DNA from: Microbispora sp. H11081
GTDB taxonomy: Bacteria > Actinomycetota > Actinomycetes > Streptosporangiales > Streptosporangiaceae
Length of the DNA stretch: 64,000 nucleotides
Reading direction: 5' to 3'
NCBI RefSeq assembly: GCF_012999535.1
Contig: NZ_JABBWV010000021.1
Coordinates: 1-64,000, forward strand
Positions 52,326-64,000 of the stretch are shown piece after piece (the stretch's first letter is position 1; each line of letters starts with the position of its first letter). The notes below the pieces were generated by a model. The model made no database searches. It was given only the letters and a program-made list of their open reading frames with translations, and had not been told where the DNA came from. The position numbers and the translations under genes were made by a program.

Positions 52326-55241
52326 TCAGCCCGCGGCGGCCCGGTCACGGGCCTGGTCAGAGGCTTGATCGCGGGCCTGCTCAGAGTCATGCTCGCGAGC
52401 CTGCTCACGGCCGAAGACCGGCACCGCGCCCGCGCCGACGCAGACGAAGCCGGCCGCCGCTGCCGCCGTACGCGGGTCGTCGCCCCGTACGGCCCGCTGG
52501 GCCTCGGCGAGAGCGGCGGCGGGCGGACACCCGGCGGCCAGCCGTTCGTGGAAGGCCACCATGACGGGGGTCGTCGCCGCATCGGGGATCGGCAGCACCG
52601 AGGCGACGAGCTGGGACGTGCCTCGGGCGAGGAACGCCACGGCGAGGCCCATCAACTCGTCTCCGGTGCGCACCACGGAACGGCCGCTGTCGCAGGCCGC
52701 GAGCACCAGCGTGTGCGGCACCCGCGGCAGCCGTTCCACGTCGTAGGCCATCAGCGGCCCGTCGGCGAGCGCGATCCCGGAGAACAGCGGGTTCTCCGCG
52801 GACAGGTGGCCGTGCGTGGCGAGGTGCGCGAGCCCGGCCCGCGACAGCGCGGCCGAGACCGCCTCGACCGACGCCGCGGCTCCGGCGAGCACGGCTCCGG
52901 CGTGGATCGCGCCGACCGCCACCGCCTCAGGCCCCGCGGCGGCCAGCCTCGGACCGGCCACCGCGACCACCGGTCCCCCCTCCGCCGGCGCGCGGCGGGT
53001 GCGGGCGAGGTGCCACAGCGTCGCGGACGGCGCGACGGTCACGGGCCGGCCCGCGCAGGACGGCAGCAGGGACCACGGCAGGCTGTGCAGCGGCCCGGTG
53101 GGCACCACGACGAGCGGGCGGTCCCCGATCTCGGCCAGCGGCCCGAGCAGCAGGGCGTCCAGCCGGGCGGACGCGGCGTCCAGCAGCGCGGCGGACGCGG
53201 CCAGCGCCTCGGGCCTGGCGTCCGGGCGCGCGTCGCGCCGTACGGCGAACGCGAGCCGCTCGATCAGGTCGGCCGCCTGGGCCGTCGCCCCCAGGCGGCG
53301 GACGCCCACGCGGCCGTCCACCATGGTGAGCACGTGCAGGTCGGCGCCCCTGCGGACATACTCGACCAGCGCCCACGAACCGAGCGACGCGGCGAGGTCC
53401 CGTGGCGTGACCGGAGCCGTGGGCACGCCGCCTGGAGCGCCGGCGCGCCTGCGGCTGTGGTCGCGGACGCGCCGCTCCAGGTCCGCCTGCCGGGCGAGCA
53501 GCGGGGCGGGCGCCGCCGCCTGACCGGCCAGGTCCCTCGCGACCGAGCGCAGCCGGGCCAGCAGCGCGGTCAGCACCGGGTCGTCGGGCGGACGCACCGG
53601 CGCGGCCGGCAGACGGCTGGCCCGGGCGCGCTCCGACCATTCGAGTAGCCCATCGGGGCGGCCGGCCTCGAAGGCCACCTCCAGTCCCAGCGCTACCAGG
53701 TCGGCCCGGTGCGCCGCCGCGTGCACCCGCAGGTCGGTGGCCCCCATCGCCGAGGCGTGCTCGTCCAGGACCCGCAGGCCCGTGCGTACGGCGGCGAGCA
53801 CACCGCGCGCGTCGCCCTCCGCCCGCCGTTGGAGCGCCCGCGCGTACCAGCCGCGCGCCCGGACGAGCGCCGGTCCCCGGGACCTGGACGCCGCCGCGGC
53901 CCTGGCGAGGTAGGCGGAGGTCGCGTCCGCCGTCCTGGCGCGCCGCCCGGCGGCGGGCGCCGCCCGCGCGTCCCCGGCGTCTCCGTCACGGCCCGGCCCT
54001 TCCGCGCCCCGCGCGACGCGGCGGTCGGCGGTCACCTGGGCGGCCACGATCGCGGCGTCCAGCGCCGCCGCCGGCCATCCCGCCGCGTCCAGAGTGGCGA
54101 CCATGACGTCGATGACCGCCGACGGAATGCGCGGCCGCTTGCCCGCGGCGCGCTGGGCGGTCAGGACGGACAGCCGGGCCAGTTCGGTCCATTCCCGCCG
54201 CTCCTGCGCGCGGAAGCGGCGCAGCGCGGCGCGGGCGTGGCCAAGCGCGGCGGCCGGATCGCCAAGCAGGATCTCGGCCCGCGCGAGCAGCAGCCGCACC
54301 TCGGGCACCTTGAGCGAGCGGCGCTCGCGGCGGTAGGCGTCGACCGCGCGTACGGCGGCCGCCTTCGCCTCCGCCGCGAGCCCCACCGACAGCAGCAGCT
54401 CGGCCCGGTCCTGATGCAGCGTGCCGAGCTGGGCGCCGTGCGCGCCGATGATGCGCTCGGCCCGGTCGAGGTGGCGCAGCGCGGCCGGCACGTCGCCCCG
54501 CAGCGTCTCCATGAGTCCGAGGTTGTTGGCGATCAGCCCGATGGTCAGCGGGCGGCCGAGCTCGCGCGCCAGCGCCTCCGCCTCAAGCAGGTCGCGTTCG
54601 GCGGCGGCGAAGGCGTGGCGGTCGGAGTGGACGAGCGCCCGGTTGATCAGCATCCGCTGCACGCCGAGCAGGTCGGCGTGCAGGCGCAGCACCGGCAGCG
54701 CCTCCTCGAACTCGGCGAGCGACTCGTCCAGGCGGCCCATCACGTGCAGCACGATCGCGCGCTGCGCGCGGGCGCGGGCTGCCGCCATGCCGGTCAGGTC
54801 CGGCAGCGCGGCGTCGATCTCGCGCAGCGCGGCCTGCGGCCTGCCCCGTTGCAGGACCGCGAAGGCGAGCTTGTAGCGCGCCTCCGCGGCCAGGTCGGCC
54901 CGGCCTGCCCGCACACCCCAGGCCGCGGCACGGCTCAGGTGCCTGATGGCGTTGTCGAGCTCGCCCACGTGCAGGAGCGCGTGCCCCCAGGCGCGTTCGG
55001 CCGTGGACGCCGCCACGGCGTGACCGGCGCGGGCCGCGCGCCGGGCGGCCCTCTCGGCCGCGGGGAGACCGGAGACGGGGTCGCGGTCGACCGCGGCCAG
55101 CGCCGACTCGGCCTCGGCCAGCGACTCGACCGCCCGCTCGACCGCCGACTCCCCGCCGTCGATGGGAACGGCGGATGCGCGTGCTGGAGCGTTCCCGTGG
55201 GCCCTTGCGCCCGGCGGCGTTTCCCGCGTTGGATGTATCAC
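52326..55241 (-). CDS. TPR-CHAT caspase-like protein
   Basis: 971 residues, GTG behind GAGGG. N-terminal ~500 residues are alpha-helical TPR-type repeats (HVGELDNAIRHLSRAAAWGV, MGRLDESLAEFEEALPVLRL, RGDVPAALRHLDRAERI). The C-terminal CHAT protease domain (about 650-940) has His810 in HLATHGHLSAENPLF and Cys850 in LVLAACDSGRS. The C-terminus has EQARDQASDQARDRA repeats. CHAT proteases act in bacterial defence and signalling by cleaving specific partners. It is divergent (76-base gap) from a subtilase and sigma factor, a pairing I regard as one module. Confidence 0.9.
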   Translation of the reverse strand: MIHPTRETPPGARAHGNAPARASAVPIDGGESAVERAVESLAEAESALAAVDRDPVSGLPAAERAARRAARAGHAVAASTAERAWGHALLHVGELDNAIRHLSRAAAWGVRAGRADLAAEARYKLAFAVLQRGRPQAALREIDAALPDLTGMAAARARAQRAIVLHVMGRLDESLAEFEEALPVLRLHADLLGVQRMLINRALVHSDRHAFAAAERDLLEAEALARELGRPLTIGLIANNLGLMETLRGDVPAALRHLDRAERIIGAHGAQLGTLHQDRAELLLSVGLAAEAKAAAVRAVDAYRRERRSLKVPEVRLLLARAEILLGDPAAALGHARAALRRFRAQERREWTELARLSVLTAQRAAGKRPRIPSAVIDVMVATLDAAGWPAAALDAAIVAAQVTADRRVARGAEGPGRDGDAGDARAAPAAGRRARTADATSAYLARAAAASRSRGPALVRARGWYARALQRRAEGDARGVLAAVRTGLRVLDEHASAMGATDLRVHAAAHRADLVALGLEVAFEAGRPDGLLEWSERARASRLPAAPVRPPDDPVLTALLARLRSVARDLAGQAAAPAPLLARQADLERRVRDHSRRRAGAPGGVPTAPVTPRDLAASLGSWALVEYVRRGADLHVLTMVDGRVGVRRLGATAQAADLIERLAFAVRRDARPDARPEALAASAALLDAASARLDALLLGPLAEIGDRPLVVVPTGPLHSLPWSLLPSCAGRPVTVAPSATLWHLARTRRAPAEGGPVVAVAGPRLAAAGPEAVAVGAIHAGAVLAGAAASVEAVSAALSRAGLAHLATHGHLSAENPLFSGIALADGPLMAYDVERLPRVPHTLVLAACDSGRSVVRTGDELMGLAVAFLARGTSQLVASVLPIPDAATTPVMVAFHERLAAGCPPAAALAEAQRAVRGDDPRTAAAAAGFVCVGAGAVPVFGREQAREHDSEQARDQASDQARDRAAAG

Positions 55242-55317
55242 GGCCAGGCCCTCGTGGTTCCGTCTGAGGAAGTTCGCGTTCCGGACGAGTCATGACCCCG
55301 GGAAGGACACTATCCAG

Positions 55318-56547
55318 ATGCCAGTCGGCGCGGGTACCACATCACACCAACCGGACCAACTCATCGTCGACCTCTCGCACCTGGAGGTCGTCGAGCGCAT
55401 GCTGGCCGACTTCGGCGTCGCGTACGCCGCCCTGGCCCCCGACGACCGGGACGAGCCGCTCGGGCTGGCCCGCCTGCGTGACCTGAGGGACTCCGACGAC
55501 GATCCCGTCGAAGTCGGCGAGCTTCTCGCCCTGCTGCGGGAGAGGGCGGCGGCCGACCGCGGCGGCTGGGTGCCGACGATCGGCAAGAACCGGGTCGTGG
55601 ACGCGGTCATCGGAGACGGCCACAAACCGATGTCACTGCCGGACGACGCGATCCTGGTGGGCGGCGGGATCTCCACCCTCGGCCACAAGCCCATGTCGGC
55701 GGGCGGGGTCGGCGTGCTGGGGCACAAGCCGATGAACGGCGGGCAGCCGGAGCCGGTGGGCCCCGGCGACGTGCCGCGGATCGCCGCGGGGCACGAGGAC
55801 GCCGGGCGCGGCGTGCGGATTGGCGTCGTCGACACCCCGCTCCCGCCCGCGGAGCCGGGTACGGCGCAGCACCCGCTTCCCTACCGCTCGGGACACTCCG
55901 CGTTCGTGCGCAGCCTCATCGAGCGGGAGGCGCCGGCCGCCGAACTCTCCGTCGAGGGAGTGCTCGACCCCGGCACGGGCCGGGCCGACTCGTGGGACAC
56001 GGCCCGGGCCATGCTGCGGCTGGCCGCCGCCTTCCAGCCGGACATCCTCAACCTCTCCCTGGGCTGCTTCACGTTGTCCGGAGGGCCGCCGCTGGTCATC
56101 GCCCGCGCGATCGAGCGGCTCGCTCCGCGCGTGCTGGTCGTGGCCGCTGCGGGCAACCACGGCGCGATCCCCCACCTCAGCTCCGGCCGCAACCGGCGCT
56201 CGGCCTGCTGGCCCGCCGCCGTCCCGCCCGTCGTCGCCGTCGGCGCGTACGGCATGGTGGACGGACGCCCGGCCATGCCCATCTGGAGCCCTGATCTCCC
56301 GTGGGTGGCGTGCCTGGCACCCGGGGAGGGGGTCGTGGGCTCCTACCTCACGGGAGAGGTCGACATCGACGGCATGCTCCAGACGTTCGATGGCCACGCG
56401 CGGTGGAGCGGCACCTCCTTCTCCGCCGCCCTCGTCAGCGGCGCGGTCGCCGCCCGCACGGTCCCCGGCTCGGTGACGCCCCGGCAGGCGCTGGACAAGC
56501 TCCTGGCCGAGGCCGCCGACGTCCGGCCGTACCCGCTCGAAGGCTGA
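55318..56547 (+). CDS. S8 subtilisin-like serine protease with GHKPM repeats
   Basis: 409 residues from ATG 55318. The catalytic triad is present: Asp172 (IGVVDTPLP), His193 (RSGHSAFVRSLI), Asn280 (VAAAGNHG) and Ser367 (WSGTSFSAAL). The N-terminal 150 residues carry three copies of GHKPM (101-105, 122-126, 135-139) in a Gly-rich linker. There is no signal peptide, so it is likely intracellular. Upstream in-frame ATGs to 55162 overlap the CHAT start and lack ribosome sites. The sigma factor gene starts six bases after the stop. Confidence 0.92.
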   Translation: MPVGAGTTSHQPDQLIVDLSHLEVVERMLADFGVAYAALAPDDRDEPLGLARLRDLRDSDDDPVEVGELLALLRERAAADRGGWVPTIGKNRVVDAVIGDGHKPMSLPDDAILVGGGISTLGHKPMSAGGVGVLGHKPMNGGQPEPVGPGDVPRIAAGHEDAGRGVRIGVVDTPLPPAEPGTAQHPLPYRSGHSAFVRSLIEREAPAAELSVEGVLDPGTGRADSWDTARAMLRLAAAFQPDILNLSLGCFTLSGGPPLVIARAIERLAPRVLVVAAAGNHGAIPHLSSGRNRRSACWPAAVPPVVAVGAYGMVDGRPAMPIWSPDLPWVACLAPGEGVVGSYLTGEVDIDGMLQTFDGHARWSGTSFSAALVSGAVAARTVPGSVTPRQALDKLLAEAADVRPYPLEG

Positions 56548-56553
56548 CGGGCC

Positions 56554-57117
56554 ATGCGCGACGACCCGGTCGTCGTCGACCTCGTGCTCCGGGCCCGCGC
56601 GGGCGACTCCTCGGCGTGGGACGCCATCGTCGAGCGGTACGCGCCGCTGGTCTGGGGGGTCTGCGGCCGGTACGGCGTGACCGGCAGCGACGCGGACGAC
56701 GTCGCCGGCGGCGTCTGGCTGCGGCTGGTGGAGCGCCTCGACACGCTGCACGAGCCGGCCGCGCTGCCCGGCTGGCTCGTCCGCGTCACCCAGCGGGAGT
56801 GCCTGCAGTCGCTGCGCGCCCGCAGACGGCAGCTTCCCGTGGACGCCCCCGAGCCGGCCGCCCGCGGGAGCGGCGAGGACGGCGTGGACGGCGAGATACT
56901 GGTGGCGGAGCGGCGGCACGCCCTGCGCGCGGCCTTCGCCGAGCTGCCCGCCCGGTGCAGGGAGCTGCTGAGCATGCTGTTCGCCGAGCCCCCGGCCTCC
57001 TACGCCGAGATCAGCGCCGCGCTCGGCGTGCCGGTGGGGGCGATCGGCCCCAGCCGCGGGCGCTGCCTGGACCGGCTGCGCAGGAGCCGGGCGCTGGCCG
57101 CTCTCCAGCTGGCCTAG
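56554..57117 (+). CDS. Sigma-70 family ECF-like sigma factor
   Basis: 187 residues. Region 2: ERYAPLVWGVCGRYGVTGSD, DADDVAGGVWLRLVERL and WLVRVTQRECLQSLRARRR. Region 4: ELPARCRELLSMLFAEPPAS, then YAEISAALGVPVGAIGPSRG and RCLDRLRRS, where TVKSR is replaced by AIGPS. It follows the subtilase by six bases. No zinc anti-sigma is adjacent; the small protein at 57127 may take that role. Confidence 0.9.
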   Translation: MRDDPVVVDLVLRARAGDSSAWDAIVERYAPLVWGVCGRYGVTGSDADDVAGGVWLRLVERLDTLHEPAALPGWLVRVTQRECLQSLRARRRQLPVDAPEPAARGSGEDGVDGEILVAERRHALRAAFAELPARCRELLSMLFAEPPASYAEISAALGVPVGAIGPSRGRCLDRLRRSRALAALQLA

Positions 57118-57126
57118 GCGGTCGAC

Positions 57127-57627
57127 GTGGAGAGGGACGACGGCGTGACGGACGTACCGAGCTGGTGGGACGACGACGACCGGCTGCTCGACGAGCTGGG
57201 GCACGCGGTGCGCGAGGCCCGGGTGCCCGAGTCCATCGTGCGCGCGGGCAAGGCCGCCTTCGCGTGGCGTACCGTCGACGCCGAGCCGGCCGAGCAGCGG
57301 TTCGACTCCCTGCTCCAGGCGCCGGAACCGGCGGGCCTGCGCGACGAGCCACGGCCGGAGGGCTCTGGGCCGCGCGTGCTGAGCTTCGTCGCGGGCGAGC
57401 TGTCCGTCGAGGCCGAGATCCATCCCGACGCGGTGCGCGGGCAGTTGGTGCCCGCGCAGCCCGGCGCGGTCCTGGTGCGGGACGACGACGGCCCCGTACG
57501 CGAGGTCCCCGTCGACGAGGTCGGCTGGTTCGTGATCGAGCCGGTCCCCGCGCGGCGCTTCCGGCTGCACGTCCGCACGTCCGCGGGGGCGGCCGTCATC
57601 ACCGGCTGGATCGACGCCCCGCAGTAG
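57127..57627 (+). CDS. Hypothetical acidic protein linked to the sigma factor
   Basis: 166 residues (GTG 57127; GTG 57145 with GGAGAGGGA upstream is an alternative). N-terminal helices (WWDDDDRLLDELGHAVREAR, PESIVRAGKAAFAWRTVDAE) are followed by a beta domain (VLSFVAGELSVEAEIHPDAV ... RRFRLHVRTSAGAAVITGWI) like carboxypeptidase-regulatory folds. No membrane helix. It starts nine bases after the sigma factor stop, so it is probably cotranscribed and may control it. No catalytic motif. Confidence 0.8.
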   Translation: MERDDGVTDVPSWWDDDDRLLDELGHAVREARVPESIVRAGKAAFAWRTVDAEPAEQRFDSLLQAPEPAGLRDEPRPEGSGPRVLSFVAGELSVEAEIHPDAVRGQLVPAQPGAVLVRDDDGPVREVPVDEVGWFVIEPVPARRFRLHVRTSAGAAVITGWIDAPQ

Positions 57628-57769
57628 ACGACCGGCCGACGCAGACGACCGGCGAGCGGCCAGCGGAAAACTCGCTGAGATTCGCTGTATCACCGATCCC
57701 CCAACGCCATCCGTCGTGCGACAGACCACCGCGTCAGCGGTGACGTACCGCACCGGAAGGACCAGGATC

Positions 57770-58546
57770 GTGAGCGATCCCGCACGCGCGATGAGCAAGG
57801 AAGACGCCTACGCCGAGCTGCTCGACCTGCAGTCAGGCGACGTGATCAGGCTGGAGGGGGAGGGCGGCCCGCACGGGGTCAGCCTGGACGGCTGGGACGG
57901 CGAGCAGCCCCAGGACGGCAACGTGGCCGGAGTCGTCGTCCGCTATCTGGCGTCGGGCACGGTGACGTTCGGGCAGCCCAGCCACCCGGCGGCGCCCGAC
58001 CGGCTGGACCCCCGCAACGCGCTCGCCCTGGTGCGGCTGTGCCAGTGGCTGAAGGACACCTACAACGTCGTCGAGCTGTACCACCTCGGCATCTCAGGCG
58101 GCGGCGTCGACGCCCAGGGCCGTCCGCGTACGGACTGCCACGGCCAGGGCCGCGCGGTCGACCTCGTCGGCGTCAAGGCGGTCGCGGAGGACGGCGAGGA
58201 GTGGACGCTCACCGTCAACGACGACTGGGGGACCGTGTCCACCGCGGCGACCCCCGGAGGGAACTGGCCGCCCGGGACCGGGTCCGGCACGTTCTACCGG
58301 CTCGACGACGAGGACGCCGACCCGTTCACCCGCGACTTCTGGCGCGCCGTGTACGAGTTCGCCGCCTCCGAGTGGCAGGACCGCACCGACGGCCCCGACG
58401 GGCTGGACACGCCCACGTCCATCGGCGAGCGCAGCTTCGTCATGCACCCCGACCACCCGGCCACCGCCCCAGGGACGCCCCACGGCCGGGAGGCCCACAA
58501 GAACCATCTCCACCTGCAGATCGGCGTCACGGGAACGGCGGTCTGA
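57770..58546 (+). CDS. M15-like (D-Ala-D-Ala carboxypeptidase-type) metallopeptidase candidate
   Basis: 258 residues, GTG with GGAAGGA upstream. It contains the zinc pattern H-x6-D in TDCHGQGRAVDLVG and H-x-H in KNHLHLQIGV, the order seen in VanY/DacA-type M15 and extensin-like peptidases. No signal peptide, so export, if any, is by another route. Family membership is from motifs only. Two bases separate its stop from the next start, the beginning of a compact operon. Confidence 0.7.
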   Translation: MSDPARAMSKEDAYAELLDLQSGDVIRLEGEGGPHGVSLDGWDGEQPQDGNVAGVVVRYLASGTVTFGQPSHPAAPDRLDPRNALALVRLCQWLKDTYNVVELYHLGISGGGVDAQGRPRTDCHGQGRAVDLVGVKAVAEDGEEWTLTVNDDWGTVSTAATPGGNWPPGTGSGTFYRLDDEDADPFTRDFWRAVYEFAASEWQDRTDGPDGLDTPTSIGERSFVMHPDHPATAPGTPHGREAHKNHLHLQIGVTGTAV

Positions 58547-58548
58547 GC

Positions 58549-59232
58549 ATGCGCAACCTCACCTTCTGCGACATCCGGCTGCGCCCGTCGACGGTGGACT
58601 CCGCCTTCGAGGAGGCCATGACCGGCGACGTCATGCCGGGCGCGGGCGACCCGCCGCACCCGCCCGGCACGCTGTTCACGCGCGGCCTGTACCGCGAGGC
58701 CGGCTACGGCTTCCCGCCGGCGTACCGCTGCGTCGTGCACTCGGACCTGGTGAGCGACACCGGGTTCTTCGGCATGCGCCCCAGGATCGCCCGGCTCGGC
58801 GCCGACACCAAGGAGCCGCGCGTCCGGCCCGTCGCGGGCGCGGTGCCGGACGACCCGACGGCGTTGGACGCGCTGCGCGCGCGACAGGACCACGCGCTGG
58901 TGATGGCCGCCGTCCATCTCCCCCTGCGGATGATCCAGGAGGCCTTCGAGAAGGAACTGGTGGCCGCGATCGAGGAGGAGGCCGGCGTGCCGTCCCGGGA
59001 CCACGCGGTGTCCGGCGCGATCTGGACCCGCGACGACGAGGCCGTCCACGGCCGGATCGAGTACCTCGTCGCCGTGACGGGCGACTTCGCCGAGCCGCGG
59101 CTGCGGACCCGTACGGTCGAGCGGATCGAGGCGGCCGGCGGCACGCTGGTCGAGTCGCGCGGGTTCCACCACGTAGGCACGGTGTTCGTAGGCACGGTGC
59201 CGGGCGAGCCCGCGCCGCGGGCCGGGGAGTGA
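58549..59232 (+). CDS. Unknown protein in the hemopexin-lysozyme operon
   Basis: 227 residues, ATG two bases after the previous stop. Sequence features: MRNLTFCDIRLRPSTVDSAF, YGFPPAYRCVVHSDLVSDTG, a helical HALVMAAVHLPLRMIQEAFE and VHGRIEYLVAVTGDFAEPRL. There is no membrane segment, signal or motif I know. Its position between an M15-like peptidase and a hemopexin-lysozyme suggests a shared complex or export unit. Confidence 0.75.
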   Translation: MRNLTFCDIRLRPSTVDSAFEEAMTGDVMPGAGDPPHPPGTLFTRGLYREAGYGFPPAYRCVVHSDLVSDTGFFGMRPRIARLGADTKEPRVRPVAGAVPDDPTALDALRARQDHALVMAAVHLPLRMIQEAFEKELVAAIEEEAGVPSRDHAVSGAIWTRDDEAVHGRIEYLVAVTGDFAEPRLRTRTVERIEAAGGTLVESRGFHHVGTVFVGTVPGEPAPRAGE

Positions 59233-59238
59233 GGGGCC

Positions 59239-60495
59239 GTGGACAAGCTCTGCGGGTTCGTCGCTCCGTCCGGGGCGAAGGCGTACTTCTTCACCGGCGA
59301 GCGCTACATCCGGTACGACGTCGAGGCCGACGGCGCCGACGAGGGCTACCCGCTGGCGATCGCCGACCAGTGGCCCGGCCTGTTCGAGGCGGACATCGAC
59401 GCCGCCCTGCCGTGGAGCGACGGCTCGGTCTTCTTCTTCCGCGGCGACCAGTGCCTGGCGTACGACATCGAGAACGGGGTCGTGCTGGACGGGCCGCGGC
59501 CGATCGCCGAGATGTGGCCTGGCCTGTTCGAGTCCGGCATCGACGCAGCGATCCTGTGGGGCAGCGGCAACGCCTACTTCTTCTCCGGGGACGCGTACCA
59601 GGAGTTCGACGGCGCGACCGGCAGCATCGATCCCCAGGCCAAGCCGATCGCCGACGACTGGCCTGGAGCGTTCCCGCGGATCGAGACGGCGCTGTGGTGG
59701 CCAAGCGGCAACCCGTACATCTTCTCCGGGAACGAGTACGCGAGGCTCGACCCCGACGACGGCTCAGTGGCCGAGGGCTTCCCCCGGCCCATCGAGGACT
59801 GGCCGGGGCTGCCGATCGGGCCGCTGACCGAGCACGTGGCCGAGCCCGTCGCGCCGGACGTGCCGGCCGGCTCCGCACGCTCGGTCAGGGACTTCTTCCC
59901 CGAGTTCAGCGCTCCGATGGAAGGCCGGCTCCCCTACCTGTACCAGGACGTCAAGGGGCTGGTCACCACGGGTATCGGCAACCTCGTCGACTCCCCCGAG
60001 GAGGCGGCCGCCCTGCCGTTCGTGCACAAGGACACCGGGACGCCCGCCACCCGCGCGGAGATCGAGGCCGAGTGGCACCGGATCAAGGACGCGCCCGGCC
60101 TCGCGCAGAAGGGCCACCTGGCGGCGAAGGCCATCCACACCCTGGAGCTGCCCGAAGCCGCGATCGACGAGCTCGTCCACGCGCGGTTCGACGTCAACGA
60201 GGCCCGGCTGTCGACCTTCTTCCCCGGGTGGGCGGACTGGCCCGCCGACGCCCGGCTCGGGGCGCACAGCATCGCCTGGACGGGCTCGTTCTTCCCCACC
60301 CGCTGGCCGGGCTTCAACGCCGCCGCGAACGCGGGCCGGTGGGAGGAGGCGGCGGCCCAGTCCCACCTGCGGGAGGACGGCAACCCCGGCCTCGCCCAGC
60401 GGAACCGGGCGAACCTCCGGCTGTTCCGCAACGCGGCCGCCGTGGTCGCCCGCGGCCTCGACCGGTCCCTCGTCTACTACCCCACCGCCCTGTGA
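59239..60495 (+). CDS. Hemopexin-repeat protein fused to T4-type (GH24) lysozyme domain
   Basis: 418 residues, GTG with GTGAGGGG upstream. Four hemopexin-like blades (about residues 10-195), each with a FF(S/T)G..Y or FFRGD core and a PI(A/E)..WPGLF stretch. After a linker the C-terminal domain (about 225-415) has the T4-lysozyme geometry Glu228-Asp237-Thr243 (MEGRLPYLYQDVKGLVTTGI), with nine and six residue spacing as in T4 (E11-D20-T26). It would cut peptidoglycan, while the propeller could bind a ligand. No signal peptide. I know of no described protein with this pairing. Confidence 0.82.
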   Translation: MDKLCGFVAPSGAKAYFFTGERYIRYDVEADGADEGYPLAIADQWPGLFEADIDAALPWSDGSVFFFRGDQCLAYDIENGVVLDGPRPIAEMWPGLFESGIDAAILWGSGNAYFFSGDAYQEFDGATGSIDPQAKPIADDWPGAFPRIETALWWPSGNPYIFSGNEYARLDPDDGSVAEGFPRPIEDWPGLPIGPLTEHVAEPVAPDVPAGSARSVRDFFPEFSAPMEGRLPYLYQDVKGLVTTGIGNLVDSPEEAAALPFVHKDTGTPATRAEIEAEWHRIKDAPGLAQKGHLAAKAIHTLELPEAAIDELVHARFDVNEARLSTFFPGWADWPADARLGAHSIAWTGSFFPTRWPGFNAAANAGRWEEAAAQSHLREDGNPGLAQRNRANLRLFRNAAAVVARGLDRSLVYYPTAL

Positions 60496-60526
60496 GCGGC
60501 GTGCCCACACAGTTCAGGAGCCAGCG

Positions 60527-62614
60527 ATGGTGAACCCAGCAGGACCGATCATGGCCGGCGGCTTCGAGACCGTCACCCTCAACGACGCCGGCGTTGAACA
60601 CTCCCTCGTCTTCCTCCCCGACAAGCACAACGACGAGCTCCAGGCCCAGGGATCCAGCCCGGTCTTCTACTGGCTGCCGGAGCGGATGCGCCTGGCCCGC
60701 AAGCCGAACGGCGACCTCAGGCTCAGCTTCCTGCACTTCCTCGGCGTGCAGGACGGCCAGACGAACCTCGGCGTGGCCCCCGGGCAGACCAGGGAGACCT
60801 CGGGCGGGGTGCTCAGCTTCGCGATGACGGGCGCCCCGCCCGAGGGCGTCCTGCGGGCGGCGCACAAGCAGATCCTGGAGCGGATGGGGCAGGGCAGCCG
60901 GGACCGGTTCTGGCAGGTCAGGCCGGGCGCGGCCGACCGGTCCACGATCGCCGACATCCGGCCGATCCCGATCAGGAGCTCCACACTGCGCCTGATGATC
61001 ACCGACCAGGACGGCACGCAGGGCGGCAACGCGGGCGACCCGTTCTTCGTCACCGCCCAGGGCGCCGGGCCCGGCAGCCTCATACCCACCGCGGAGCACC
61101 CGTTCATCGTCAACCTCGGCACCTTCGCGGCGGCGCAGGTGGAGCAGGGACTGCTGGGCACCGAGGCGCCCATCGGGGTGACGGCCGACCTCACGCTGCC
61201 GCTGTGGGCGCCGATCACGCGGCTGCACATGACCGCCAACTGGGAGCGGGTGTTCAGCCACTTCACGGCCCAGGCCAACGCCAGCTGGTGGTGGAGCTCG
61301 GGCGACCTCAAGGCCACCTGGAACACCCTGCGGATGAACGGCGACATCAAGGTCGAGCTGGAGATGGACCGCACCATCCCCGGCGCGGACAACAAGGAGG
61401 CGATGGTCACCAAATACATCGACATGCTCGTGGCGATGTGGCTGGACCAGGCCAAGCAGGTCATCTTCCAGCCGATGCCGGAAGTGCAGGACCCGGGCCC
61501 GCCCAAGCCGGGCGGGCTGCTCAACCTCTTCGGCTGGGGCTTCGGCGCGGGGTTCAGCCTCAACTACCGCCACGATCGGGTGGAGATCGCCAACTCCTTC
61601 ACCTTCGAGGTCGACGAGGTGTACGCGCAGCCGAGCACGATGGGCGGCACCGTGGACGGCGTGGCCGACCTGCTGGCCGCCCACCCGGAACTCAAGAGCC
61701 GCTACCTGCGCACGCTGTACCTCGACAACTGGGAACGCAAGATCACCACGGTCTGCCGGCCCGTCATCAAGTGGCCCGACCCGGACCACGGCGTGAGCGG
61801 CGACCCGGTGAAGTTCGCCAGCGTCCAGATCGGCTACCCCAGCGTGAACGGCGAGATCGCGTGGTCCGCCCACGACTTCCTGCCGCCGCCGCGCCCGCAG
61901 GAGGTCGACGCGACGACCGACGTGCGCGGCGAGGGCGCCCCCGTCGGGGAGACCACCCCGATCGCCCCCGCCTCCTCGCCGACCCTCGTCTACGCCGGCG
62001 GCGCGACCAGCGAGGTCTTCTTCGCCCGGCAGACCCAAAAGAAGGCGGAGGAGGTCGCGGGCGCGCCGGAGGGGTGGCGTCCCGACAAGGTGTTCGTCCG
62101 GCGCACCATCCAGTTCGACGAGGCGCCGTCCGCCCTCGACGACCGGTTCTCCCGGATCCTCGTCGAGGCCAACGAGGTGGACCTCGACCCGGGCCCGTTC
62201 GGCACCCTCACCGACAGCCTGAACGTGGCCGTACGCGCCGACAACGCAGGCGCGCTCGTGCTCGCCCCGATCTCCATCAACCGGGACCTGACGGCGAGCA
62301 ACCAGATCGTCGAGGTGCAGGTGCAGCCCAAGGGCGAGGGCCCCGACGGCGGCGAGCGCCCGATCGTGACGTTCACCTTCACCATGGCCGACACCGGAGA
62401 GCACTACAAGGAACGCCGGTTCGCCCTCTACACGGGACAGCCGGGACGGCCGCCCGCGTACCGCTACCGGGTGCGCGTGATCATCAAGGGCACGCTGTTC
62501 GAGGACGGGGACGAGTGGATCGGGCCCTGGACGGACGGCGAGGGCAGCGGCGACCTGCACGTGCGGGTGCCGAAGAAGAACTCTCCCGGCGTCACCGTCG
62601 TGAGCCAGGACTGA
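60527..62614 (+). CDS. Large unknown protein in the hemopexin-lysozyme operon (695 aa)
   Basis: 695 residues, ATG with AGGAGCCAGCG upstream, 31 bases after the lysozyme gene. The protein is beta-rich with many aromatic residues (GSSPVFYWLPERMRLARKPN, QANASWWWSSGDLKATWNTL, LYLDNWERKITTVCRPVIKW). It has no signal peptide, membrane helix or motif I recognise. Its length and even composition suggest a structural protein. It could be a shell or carrier component. Confidence 0.75.
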   Translation: MVNPAGPIMAGGFETVTLNDAGVEHSLVFLPDKHNDELQAQGSSPVFYWLPERMRLARKPNGDLRLSFLHFLGVQDGQTNLGVAPGQTRETSGGVLSFAMTGAPPEGVLRAAHKQILERMGQGSRDRFWQVRPGAADRSTIADIRPIPIRSSTLRLMITDQDGTQGGNAGDPFFVTAQGAGPGSLIPTAEHPFIVNLGTFAAAQVEQGLLGTEAPIGVTADLTLPLWAPITRLHMTANWERVFSHFTAQANASWWWSSGDLKATWNTLRMNGDIKVELEMDRTIPGADNKEAMVTKYIDMLVAMWLDQAKQVIFQPMPEVQDPGPPKPGGLLNLFGWGFGAGFSLNYRHDRVEIANSFTFEVDEVYAQPSTMGGTVDGVADLLAAHPELKSRYLRTLYLDNWERKITTVCRPVIKWPDPDHGVSGDPVKFASVQIGYPSVNGEIAWSAHDFLPPPRPQEVDATTDVRGEGAPVGETTPIAPASSPTLVYAGGATSEVFFARQTQKKAEEVAGAPEGWRPDKVFVRRTIQFDEAPSALDDRFSRILVEANEVDLDPGPFGTLTDSLNVAVRADNAGALVLAPISINRDLTASNQIVEVQVQPKGEGPDGGERPIVTFTFTMADTGEHYKERRFALYTGQPGRPPAYRYRVRVIIKGTLFEDGDEWIGPWTDGEGSGDLHVRVPKKNSPGVTVVSQD

Positions 62615-62619
62615 GCCCG

Positions 62620-64000
62620 GTGAACACGCCAGGAGTCCCGGCCGACGAGCCGGGCCCGCGCATCGGGGCTGCCGACGGGGGCGAGCCCCTGCTGCCCGAC
62701 TGGGACCTGGGCGCGCCCTGGTGGGCGCCCGCGCCCGAGGTGGTGCCCGCCGCCGAGGGCACGTTCCGGTTCCTGTTCCGCGTCACCGGTCACGACGAGG
62801 AGGGATCGCCCGTCATCAGCGCGACGGTCACCGCCGTGCTGCGCTTTCCCCCGCCGCCGCCCGGCGCCCAGCCCGTCCCGTGGACGGACGTGAGCGTACG
62901 GCTGCGCATCCCGTTCGTGGACGCCGACACCGGCCGGCCGGCGTCCACCGAACTCCCGGTCGACGTGGATCGGCGTGGCGACGTCGTCCACTGCCGGGCC
63001 GAGATCAGCGGAGCCGTGGCCAGGGCGGCGTACGGCGCGCTGAGCACGCCGGGATTCCAGCCGCACGACGGTGCGGGAATGATCGTCAGCACGAGCTTCG
63101 TCGGCGTGCAGGAGACGTACGCCGCGTGGGCCGCGCCCGGGGTGACCGAGGAGGGGCCGGACCGGCTGGAGATCGTACGGGTCCGGGGATGGCCGTTCGA
63201 GGAGCCGCTCCGCGTGGAGCACCCGATCCCCGACGAGCATCCGAACTGGTCGGACGTGCTGACCACCGAGGTCCGCGTCCCCGGCGAGCTCACGACCGCC
63301 GGGCGGGCCGCTGTCCGGCTGGCCCGGGTGGAGGCGCCGTTCACGGAGTCGGCGCTCACGGAGGTGCCGCTCACGGAGGTGCCGCTCACGGAGGTGCCGC
63401 TCACGGAGGTGCCGCTCACGGAGGTGCCGCTTCTCCTGCCGCGCGCCGGCCGGCGTCTGGTGCGCCGCGACGACCTGCGCGGACGGCGTACGGACATCAT
63501 CCGCGACATCCCCACCGGGATCCCGGGATCGGGCGGGCTCGGCCCCGACCGGTTCGCCACGAGCCCCCTGTCGTACACCATCGACGTCGGCGTGTCGGTG
63601 ACCCGCTCGCACCGCCTGCCGCTGCTGGTGCCGTGCCGGGACAACCCCGGCCTGTACCGGCAGGACGTCGGGGCCACTGAGCCGGTGATCGTCGGCTGCC
63701 AGGACGCCTTCCAGCTCGGCCGCGTGCCTGCCAGGCGGTTCGGGCCGGCTCCGCGCCTGGACCGCGACCACCGCTACTCGGTGTGGGAGTCGCTCCAGCA
63801 GCCGGCGACGTACCTCGTCGTGCCCGCCCACTACCGGGTGGCCCGCGACGTGGCGGGCCGCCCCCAGCTGGAGTGGCTGCAGGTGTTCGACGCCACCGTG
63901 GACGCCGGCCTGCCGTGCCGGCTGCAGGCCAGGTGCGTGCCCGACCTGTCGGCGGCCGAGCTCGCCGAGCTGGAGTCGCTGCTGCGCGCGGACGCCGGCG
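62620..64000 (+). CDS. Unknown protein with five exact LTEVP repeats, 3' end outside window
   Basis: GTG start five bases after the preceding stop; the frame is open to the end (at least 460 residues). Segments: DWDLGAPWWAPAPEVVPAAE, a beta domain with TFRFLFRVTGHDEEGSPVI, PGFQPHDGAGMIVSTSFVGV, then five consecutive LTEVP units (63355-63429), followed by RTDIIRDIPTGIPGSGG and another beta region. It shares the unusual beta-rich, signal-less style of the 695-aa protein upstream. The function is unknown. The end of the protein is not visible. Confidence 0.75.
   Translation, partial: MNTPGVPADEPGPRIGAADGGEPLLPDWDLGAPWWAPAPEVVPAAEGTFRFLFRVTGHDEEGSPVISATVTAVLRFPPPPPGAQPVPWTDVSVRLRIPFVDADTGRPASTELPVDVDRRGDVVHCRAEISGAVARAAYGALSTPGFQPHDGAGMIVSTSFVGVQETYAAWAAPGVTEEGPDRLEIVRVRGWPFEEPLRVEHPIPDEHPNWSDVLTTEVRVPGELTTAGRAAVRLARVEAPFTESALTEVPLTEVPLTEVPLTEVPLTEVPLLLPRAGRRLVRRDDLRGRRTDIIRDIPTGIPGSGGLGPDRFATSPLSYTIDVGVSVTRSHRLPLLVPCRDNPGLYRQDVGATEPVIVGCQDAFQLGRVPARRFGPAPRLDRDHRYSVWESLQQPATYLVVPAHYRVARDVAGRPQLEWLQVFDATVDAGLPCRLQARCVPDLSAAELAELESLLRADAG
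63355..63429 (+). repeat. Five perfect 15-bp tandem repeats (LTEVP)
   Basis: CTCACGGAGGTGCCG occurs five times without a mismatch from 63355 to 63429. It encodes LTEVP x5 in the last gene. Length variation by slippage in multiples of five residues would keep the frame. Confidence 0.95.

Follow-up and report, generated by a model that had tools for sequence, protein, structure and literature searches.

A mobile nine-gene cassette of Microbispora combining a protease/sigma factor module with candidate wall enzymes and an undescribed pair of large proteins

The window analysed here is a stretch of 64,000 nucleotides from Microbispora sp. H11081 (contig NZ_JABBWV010000021.1, positions 1 to 64,000; positions on the contig are also written C14:position). 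Its right end harbors a mobile cassette of nine genes and approximately 12.5 kb, consisting of a divergent TPR-CHAT protease, a subtilase, an extracytoplasmic function (ECF) sigma factor and a 166-aa protein, followed by five plus-strand genes, referred to below as the effector operon. The latter encode an M15-like zinc peptidase candidate, a 227-aa protein, a hemopexin propeller fused to a lysozyme-like domain, and two large proteins, denoted A and B, which constitute an undescribed gene pair as far as our searches show. The pair is conserved in loci of four phyla, where its partners vary. We propose, at what we regard as about an even chance, that the unit is a horizontally moving, protease-linked (and protease-gated) lysis cassette, built from a conserved two-protein core with swappable lytic partners.

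Integrity and mobility of the cassette

The cassette is present in 8 of the 15 Microbispora genomes, the window's own included. All eight loci show the same order of nine genes, with sizes of approximately 222-244 aa for the counterparts of the 227-aa protein, 695 aa for protein A, and 739-790 aa for protein B. Protein A is 94-97% identical in the seven further Microbispora genomes; of 45 genomes from other genera, none gave a full-length match and one gave a weak partial match. All nine genes also occur in Amycolatopsis sp. GM8 (identities 49-83%). The median ratio of nonsynonymous to synonymous substitution rates (dN/dS) ranges from 0.20 (M15-like gene) to 0.50 (protein B) across the nine genes, the CHAT gene being measured in seven of the eight genomes; the highest value for a single pair is 0.91 (227-aa protein). 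Because the order is kept in all eight Microbispora loci and in Amycolatopsis, at medians within this range, the gene arrangement is not due to chance.

Considering matches of more than 250 bases only, DNA homology begins at C14:52333-52416, the end of the CHAT gene, in seven Microbispora loci and in Amycolatopsis. It ends just past the last gene, at C14:64844-64890 in Microbispora and at 64826 in Amycolatopsis. This last gene is cut by the window end, and past position 64000, where the initial annotation could not follow it, it runs on to a stop codon at C14:64839, 839 bases beyond the window. The cassettes of the eight genomes occupy six sites, and the called flanking genes are unrelated except in L018, L022 and L024, which represent one common site. 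The two flanks of the window's cassette, here 12.7 kb apart, are found 104-126 bp apart on one contig in 10 of the 14 other Microbispora genomes (G001, G003, G004, G006, G008, G009, G010, G011, G012 and G013), the left match comprising merely the last 205-267 bases of the query in eight of these ten. Four of the ten (G006, G010, G012 and G013) carry the cassette at another position, and no adjacent flank pair was found in G002, G005, G007 and G014. Since the sites differ between genomes and the flanks adjoin each other in the empty sites of relatives, the nine-gene unit is a mobile cassette. Its genes include no recognised recombinase.

The intergenic gaps of the effector operon are 2, 6, 31 and 5 bases according to the open reading frame listings, in agreement with the spacing of 2-31 bases in the initial annotation. 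The CHAT, subtilase and sigma factor genes, described there as preceding the operon, belong with it by common boundaries and a common promoter-like element. The GTG start at 57770 lies behind a purine-rich stretch and is backed by approximately 20 bases conserved in Amycolatopsis; the CHAT protease comprises 971 aa counted from the farthest start, and its true start may be further in. A crude hydropathy scan (no dedicated signal-peptide predictor was applied) detects no hydrophobic, signal-like N-terminus in the five operon proteins, as had been claimed, and no convincing membrane segment; protein B has a weak hydrophobic C-terminal stretch that is missing from its relatives in the same scan. 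Besides the hemopexin repeats, the five proteins have no significant match in Pfam, and none in NCBIfam, PHROGs or PADLOC. Among all nine proteins, Pfam detects no secretion family, no EAD domain and no NucA endonuclease, and no holin-like membrane protein was recognised. A known defence system was considered and discarded, as the only PADLOC results were a match to a general subtilase model (E 9.8e-9) and one to BovA that was not significant.

Table 1. Features of the cassette and their positions in the window.
Feature	Position	Strand	Remark
TPR-CHAT caspase-clan protease	52326..55241	-	left end of cassette, divergent; Pfam CHAT E 4.5e-37, plus TPR
Promoter-like element TGTATCAC-N19-CGTC	55234..55264	+	CHAT/subtilase control region
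Subtilase S8, 409 aa	55318..56547	+	Pfam S8 E 6.4e-12
ECF-type sigma factor, 187 aa, ECF54-like by gene context	56554..57117	+	Pfam Sigma70_r2 E 1e-13
166-aa protein, recurrent companion of the sigma/subtilase/CHAT module	57127..57627	+	profile matches across the class
Promoter-like element TGTATCAC-N18-CGTC	57686..57715	+	upstream of five-gene effector operon
M15/LAS-like zinc peptidase candidate, 258 aa	57770..58546	+	histidine motif
227-aa protein	58549..59232	+	present in Microbispora and Amycolatopsis cassettes
Hemopexin propeller (4 repeats) fused to T4-type lysozyme-like domain, 418 aa	59239..60495	+	PF00045 E 6e-36
Core protein A, 695 aa	60527..62614	+	homologues in four phyla
Core protein B (LTEVP-type linker), 739 aa	62620..64000, on to C14:64839	+	follows protein A in relatives

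The core pair and its changing partners

Relatives of protein A are found on one plasmid (Deinococcus taeanensis, 32.5% identity, 99% covered) and in 18 genome loci, and belong to four phyla: Actinomycetota, Deinococcota, Bacteroidota, and Pseudomonadota, the last represented by one metagenome-assembled genome (MAG). Protein B follows protein A on the same strand on the Deinococcus plasmid and in 17 of the 18 genome loci, namely six of Microbispora (on contigs already in the eight-locus set), Amycolatopsis, two Streptomyces, Streptacidiphilus, four Flavihumibacter, Tenacibaculum, a Bacteroidetes MAG and the gammaproteobacterial MAG. It is the next gene everywhere but in S. rishiriensis, where tachylectin repeats lie between A and B or are joined to B (the stretch is partly masked). 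The eighteenth locus (L053) matches only in part, over 83 residues, with no partner seen. Protein A has no match in Pfam, NCBIfam, PHROGs, PADLOC or the PDB and is a member of an undescribed superfamily; protein B matches no family model and no PDB sequence. The family is rare: in a phylum sample of 396 genomes a mixed profile matched two, and the genome of the window is one of these. The LTEVP repeat stretch of protein B (gene at L005:7621-9840) is a linker that varies among the eight Microbispora and is not conserved in relatives. Two ideas on origin were rejected: that protein B shares an ancestor with protein A or the distant branch described below (hhalign probabilities 0.3 and 7.5, insignificant), and that there is a phage or tail-like origin, protein A having no PHROGs match, phage record or viral-contig relative.

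The genes found beside the pair differ between lineages. The M15-like protein and the hemopexin-lysozyme fusion are its partners in Microbispora and Amycolatopsis, a lysozyme domain alone in Streptacidiphilus, and a PG_binding_1 protein with a lysozyme-like tail (the tail by eye) in S. adustus. In Deinococcus and six Bacteroidota loci a caspase is encoded directly downstream of the pair, with PG_binding_1 in all three that were scanned (Deinococcus, one Flavihumibacter and Tenacibaculum). The partner in the gammaproteobacterial MAG is a subtilase. The domain that separates the caspase part from the PG_binding part is seen again in this subtilase as well as in a third protein of the MAG locus (BLAST, alignment), which suggests that it may act as an adaptor by which interchangeable enzymes are coupled to the pair. 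The available parts of PMC3501461 describe caspases of prokaryotes that carry a peptidoglycan-binding or an amidase domain, the amidase type being linked to cell death. The Deinococcus and Bacteroidota partners resemble them in combining caspase and peptidoglycan-binding parts, but differ in the adjacent gene pair, of which those parts make no mention. Likewise, the parts seen of PMC8195603 describe caspase systems with ECF sigma factor genes and do not mention the pair.

The survey of neighbourhoods of protein A gives a divided answer to the question whether the five operon genes recur together: all five are found in Microbispora and Amycolatopsis, whereas elsewhere the pair has other partners or, in S. 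rishiriensis, no recognised enzyme nearby. Homologues of A and B without the enzymes, named beforehand in the initial annotation as speaking against a system, are seen in S. rishiriensis, Deinococcus, Bacteroidota and the gammaproteobacterial MAG. Because such homologues occur without these particular enzymes, the pair looks like the fixed core and the enzymes appear swappable, a mixed outcome for the original idea.

As candidates, and by their motifs, the two peptidoglycan enzymes predicted for the operon are borne out. In the fusion protein, four hemopexin repeats score over the Pfam cut-off, confirming the hemopexin part. The catalytic spacing of T4 lysozyme is E-x8-D-x5-T, and the window protein has this very motif, as the initial annotation had noted; across six sequences E and D are invariant, and the third position is Thr in three and Ser in three. 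No Pfam lysozyme family matches the domain at E values of 1 or below. The domain aligns with T4 lysozyme over the catalytic stretch (best PDB match, insignificant at E 0.095), and the eight weak PDB matches to its profile, none of them significant, include four T4 lysozyme variants, one named lysozyme and one gp5, which we take to be lysozyme-bearing. The Glu/Asp spacing and the missing signal peptide are shared with T4-type (GH24) phage endolysins; unlike these, the cassette lysozyme is fused to a hemopexin propeller, and no holin was recognised and no phage genes were seen in the cassette. Relatives of the domain include one phage protein (40.8% identical) and Streptomyces plasmid proteins of two kinds, of which one is confirmed to carry PG_binding_1.

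M15/LAS peptidases bind their metal through the motifs H-x6-D and H-x-H. In the M15-like protein H117...H239-x-H241 is invariant in four of four sequences and the Asp is present in three; no significant Pfam, NCBIfam or PDB match was obtained. The 227-aa protein has no family, PDB or plasmid match. On Streptomyces plasmids, one M15-like relative and one lysozyme relative each adjoin a BTAD regulator and a subtilase gene, and thus the combination of a wall-enzyme candidate with a neighbouring protease and regulator is also met where the core pair is lacking. We note that three Streptomyces plasmids (L054, L055 and L134) carry wall-enzyme candidates beside BTAD regulators, with a subtilase in L055 and L134, and PLD-like and DUF2235 genes in L054.

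A distant branch of protein A is represented in G009, a Microbispora genome without the cassette, whose homologues match with a profile comparison probability of 99.5 over 511 columns; no PDB relative of this branch was found. Its profile matched 11 of 200 genomes of the family: six by cassette protein A, four by multi-paralogue loci (G713, G632, G756 and G792), and one marginally. Distant-branch loci hold 3-6 matching paralogues each. G009 and G713 have the common order 768-762-725-741-970-311-CHAP/PG_binding, beside CHAT/subtilase/sigma/166-type genes, and G632 has the sigma module and the large genes with no CHAP gene called; the branch hence adjoins the same sigma module in three loci, two of them with a CHAP-PG_binding hydrolase. 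Five paralogues in one run are found on a Paracoccus plasmid and four on a Pararhizobium plasmid (BLAST E up to 1e-3). The Paracoccus run (L034) consists of trypsin-like, EAD1 and NTPase genes, followed by the large paralogues with a PLD-like enzyme. Several minor features accompany this branch. The 970-aa protein of G009 (L025:13429-16341) has, by eye, an OmpA-like insert, possibly a peptidoglycan-binding part, with no family model matched. An aegerolysin-like protein (Pfam 20.4 bits, cut-off 22) lies near the multi-paralogue locus of G756 (L163:4766-5806), and G792 encodes a protein with a near-identical start (L166:12798-13838). LuxR-type ATPase regulators are found near the operons of G713 and G632, and a dyad-like GAGTA...TACTC, by eye, upstream of the 768-type gene (L026, L161 and L162).

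The sigma factor module and its promoter-like element

The sequence TGTATCAC occurs exactly twice in each of nine cassette loci, in the CHAT/subtilase gap and upstream of the M15-like gene, and TGTATCAC-N18/19-CGTC is common to both control regions. The pattern TGTATCACN{17,20}CGTC has exactly 2 matches in the 7.38 Mb genome, both within the cassette, and TGTATCACSG has 11. A bipartite search in five genomes with the locus (the window's own, G002, G005, G006 and G007) matched 9 of the 10 expected sites, the unmatched site of G005 differing within the CGTC part, and gave 0-2 matches in each of ten genomes without the locus. Amycolatopsis reads CGGT instead of CGTC at one of its two sites (by eye).

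The core of the element extends beyond the cassette. GTATCA is found on the subtilase strand in 13 of the 14 gaps that separate a CHAT gene from a divergent subtilase gene, where its local frequency predicts 0.25; 11 of the 13 read TGTATCA, and L126 is without any. The 14 gaps are those of 12 of the 20 loci chosen for the 166-aa protein, together with L160 and L025; the non-divergent L129 was dropped before counting. This fits an autoregulated ECF promoter, and the recurrence of the core in related sigma/subtilase/CHAT loci points to the sigma factor as the probable driver of both operons.

The 166-aa protein, which by eye resembles a carboxypeptidase-regulatory-type domain (no Pfam match over cut-off), is detected by its profile in 72 of 296 genomes of the class. 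Its gene lies beside sigma factor, S8 or CHAT genes in most of the 20 chosen loci (called subtilase in 14, called CHAT in 14, the 166-aa gene itself uncalled in L118). The sigma factor matches TIGR02937 with 68.2 bits (cut-off 42.9, E 6e-19). D172, H193 and S367 of the subtilase, taken to be the catalytic triad of this family, fall in invariant columns of three aligned sequences. Near its N-terminus, before the catalytic domain, the subtilase (55318-56547) has three GHKPM repeats, two in Amycolatopsis and none in G009, which are possible cleavage or binding sites.

The available passages of PMC8999054 give the context of ECF54 as subtilase, CHAT and carboxypeptidase genes, with proteolysis proposed as control. 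The cassette agrees in having an ECF sigma factor with subtilase and CHAT genes, and, unlike those passages, adds an effector operon, hemopexin, lysozyme and the large core pair; the ECF54 label is by gene context. Candidates for the carboxypeptidase-type gene are the 166-aa protein (by eye) or the M15-like protein. For a sigma module widespread in Actinomycetes, the cassette provides a specific candidate for the operon that it targets, together with a promoter prediction.

Proposed function and competing explanations

According to the lysis-cassette reading, the TPR-CHAT protease, the subtilase and the 166-aa protein would control the sigma factor, which upon release would transcribe its own operon and the effector operon from the two matching promoters. 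The effector operon would yield two likely peptidoglycan enzymes (M15-like and hemopexin-lysozyme), the 227-aa protein and the two core proteins, which may serve as scaffold or carrier for lytic partners differing by lineage. The enzymes would be kept inside until membrane failure or cell lysis, because no signal peptide and no holin-like membrane protein is recognised among the nine proteins, and would then finish lysis of the producer or reach neighbours. The integrity and mobility of the cassette, the conservation of the pair, the variety of its partners and the promoter-like element common to both operons are observed, and conservation argues for the predicted regulatory wiring; sigma binding, protease gating, enzyme activity, the carrier role and killing are steps that we infer.

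Several points weigh against this reading. The lysis function and the enzyme activities are predicted from sequence: the motif and profile matches below significance suggest the lysozyme fold, and the histidine motif suggests the M15-like identity. Close to the pair of S. rishiriensis no lytic enzyme was recognised, and the surroundings of the pair in the three Streptomyces/Streptacidiphilus loci contain no recognised protease. The rarity of the promoter-like element is weak by itself, reversed controls matching too (1 versus 2 for the bipartite pattern, 3 versus 11 for TGTATCACSG). Core relatives are found in one of the 20 sampled 166-aa loci (L131), none being printed around the other 19. 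In G756 and G792 the paralogues lie on both strands, with no sigma module in the stretches examined. The predicted link between sigma factor and effectors is not general, because the GTATCA element is not upstream of the distant-branch effector operon in any of three loci looked at; sigma control of that operon was rejected on this ground.

A bolder version, which we put forward tentatively, regards the pair as the invariant centre of a lytic machine of a new class, present in bacteria of four or more phyla. It would be a two-protein assembly (in the distant branch a multi-protein one) that docks interchangeable partners by add-on domains, these being wall hydrolases, pore or lipid-acting proteins, caspases and subtilases. 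The machine would be triggered or released by proteolysis, wired in Actinomycetes to a protease-gated sigma factor, and would move as one cassette. Should the pair indeed carry or scaffold its lytic partners, bacteria would have a novel means of bringing about cell death or attack; in any case, an unannotated protein superfamily of four phyla is found with caspase-clan proteases and likely wall-cutting enzymes. Among the top matches of our literature searches, no paper was recognised on the core pair, the cassette, or a hemopexin-lysozyme fusion with CHAT. Systems in which a protease is linked to effectors directed at the wall are known in outline, and the core pair and its wiring are undescribed as far as searches show. 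The initial suggestion of an undescribed system stands in that the genes form a coherent multi-gene system with no match in the libraries searched, but not in its composition, as the set of enzymes plus pair is not fixed across lineages.

The lysis cassette may take more specific forms. One that is possible, if doubtful, is a released antibacterial assembly: the pair would form a particle or carrier that lysis of the producer sets free and that takes the wall enzymes to competing bacteria, and the hemopexin or tachylectin propeller would do the targeting. The propeller and the peptidoglycan-binding domains vary by lineage, the several paralogues of each distant-branch locus are what a heteromeric assembly would predict, and PLD-like and aegerolysin-like proteins neighbour the distant relatives. 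However, the large proteins have no match to the structural phage families of PHROGs, protein A has no phage or viral-contig relative, and Pfam finds no secretion family among the nine proteins.

A rather improbable form is suicidal defence, in which the protease module would sense phage or other invasion and trigger wall lysis of the infected hypha, similar to protease-gated conflict systems. The cassette is mobile and patchily present, caspase-clan proteases lie beside the pair, and the Paracoccus relatives adjoin trypsin-like, EAD1 and NTPase genes. A published precedent exists in the trypsin/EAD1 systems with lysozyme- and papain-like peptidoglycan effectors of Kaur et al. (PMC7159879, as far as its available parts show). 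The NucA-trypsin/EAD1 systems of that paper share with the cassette the signal proteases and peptidoglycan-directed effectors, and alphaproteobacterial core relatives stand beside the same kinds of gene; in contrast, the cassette is without EAD or NucA and has another regulator, and the core pair is unmentioned in those parts. Against suicidal defence stand the lack of any EAD in the window proteins, the uninformative PADLOC result (general subtilase model, insignificant hit), and the fact that no sensor was identified.

Developmental wall remodelling, or spore or hyphal lysis under the ECF sigma factor with no role in conflict, is unlikely. ECF control and the wide occurrence of the sigma module, as judged by its 166-aa member, would suit it, but the cassette is missing from 7 of the 15 Microbispora genomes and inserted at several sites, and the pair also occurs in Bacteroidota and Deinococcota, which are not known to develop in a spore or hyphal manner. 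Coincidental clustering of a general stress sigma module with an unrelated operon is very improbable: the scarcity of core relatives around the sampled 166-aa genes and the element missing upstream of the distant-branch operon would be expected from it, but the two operons have common boundaries and matching promoter-like elements, and module and core relatives occur together in five loci of four genera (the Microbispora cassette, Amycolatopsis, G009, G713 and G632).

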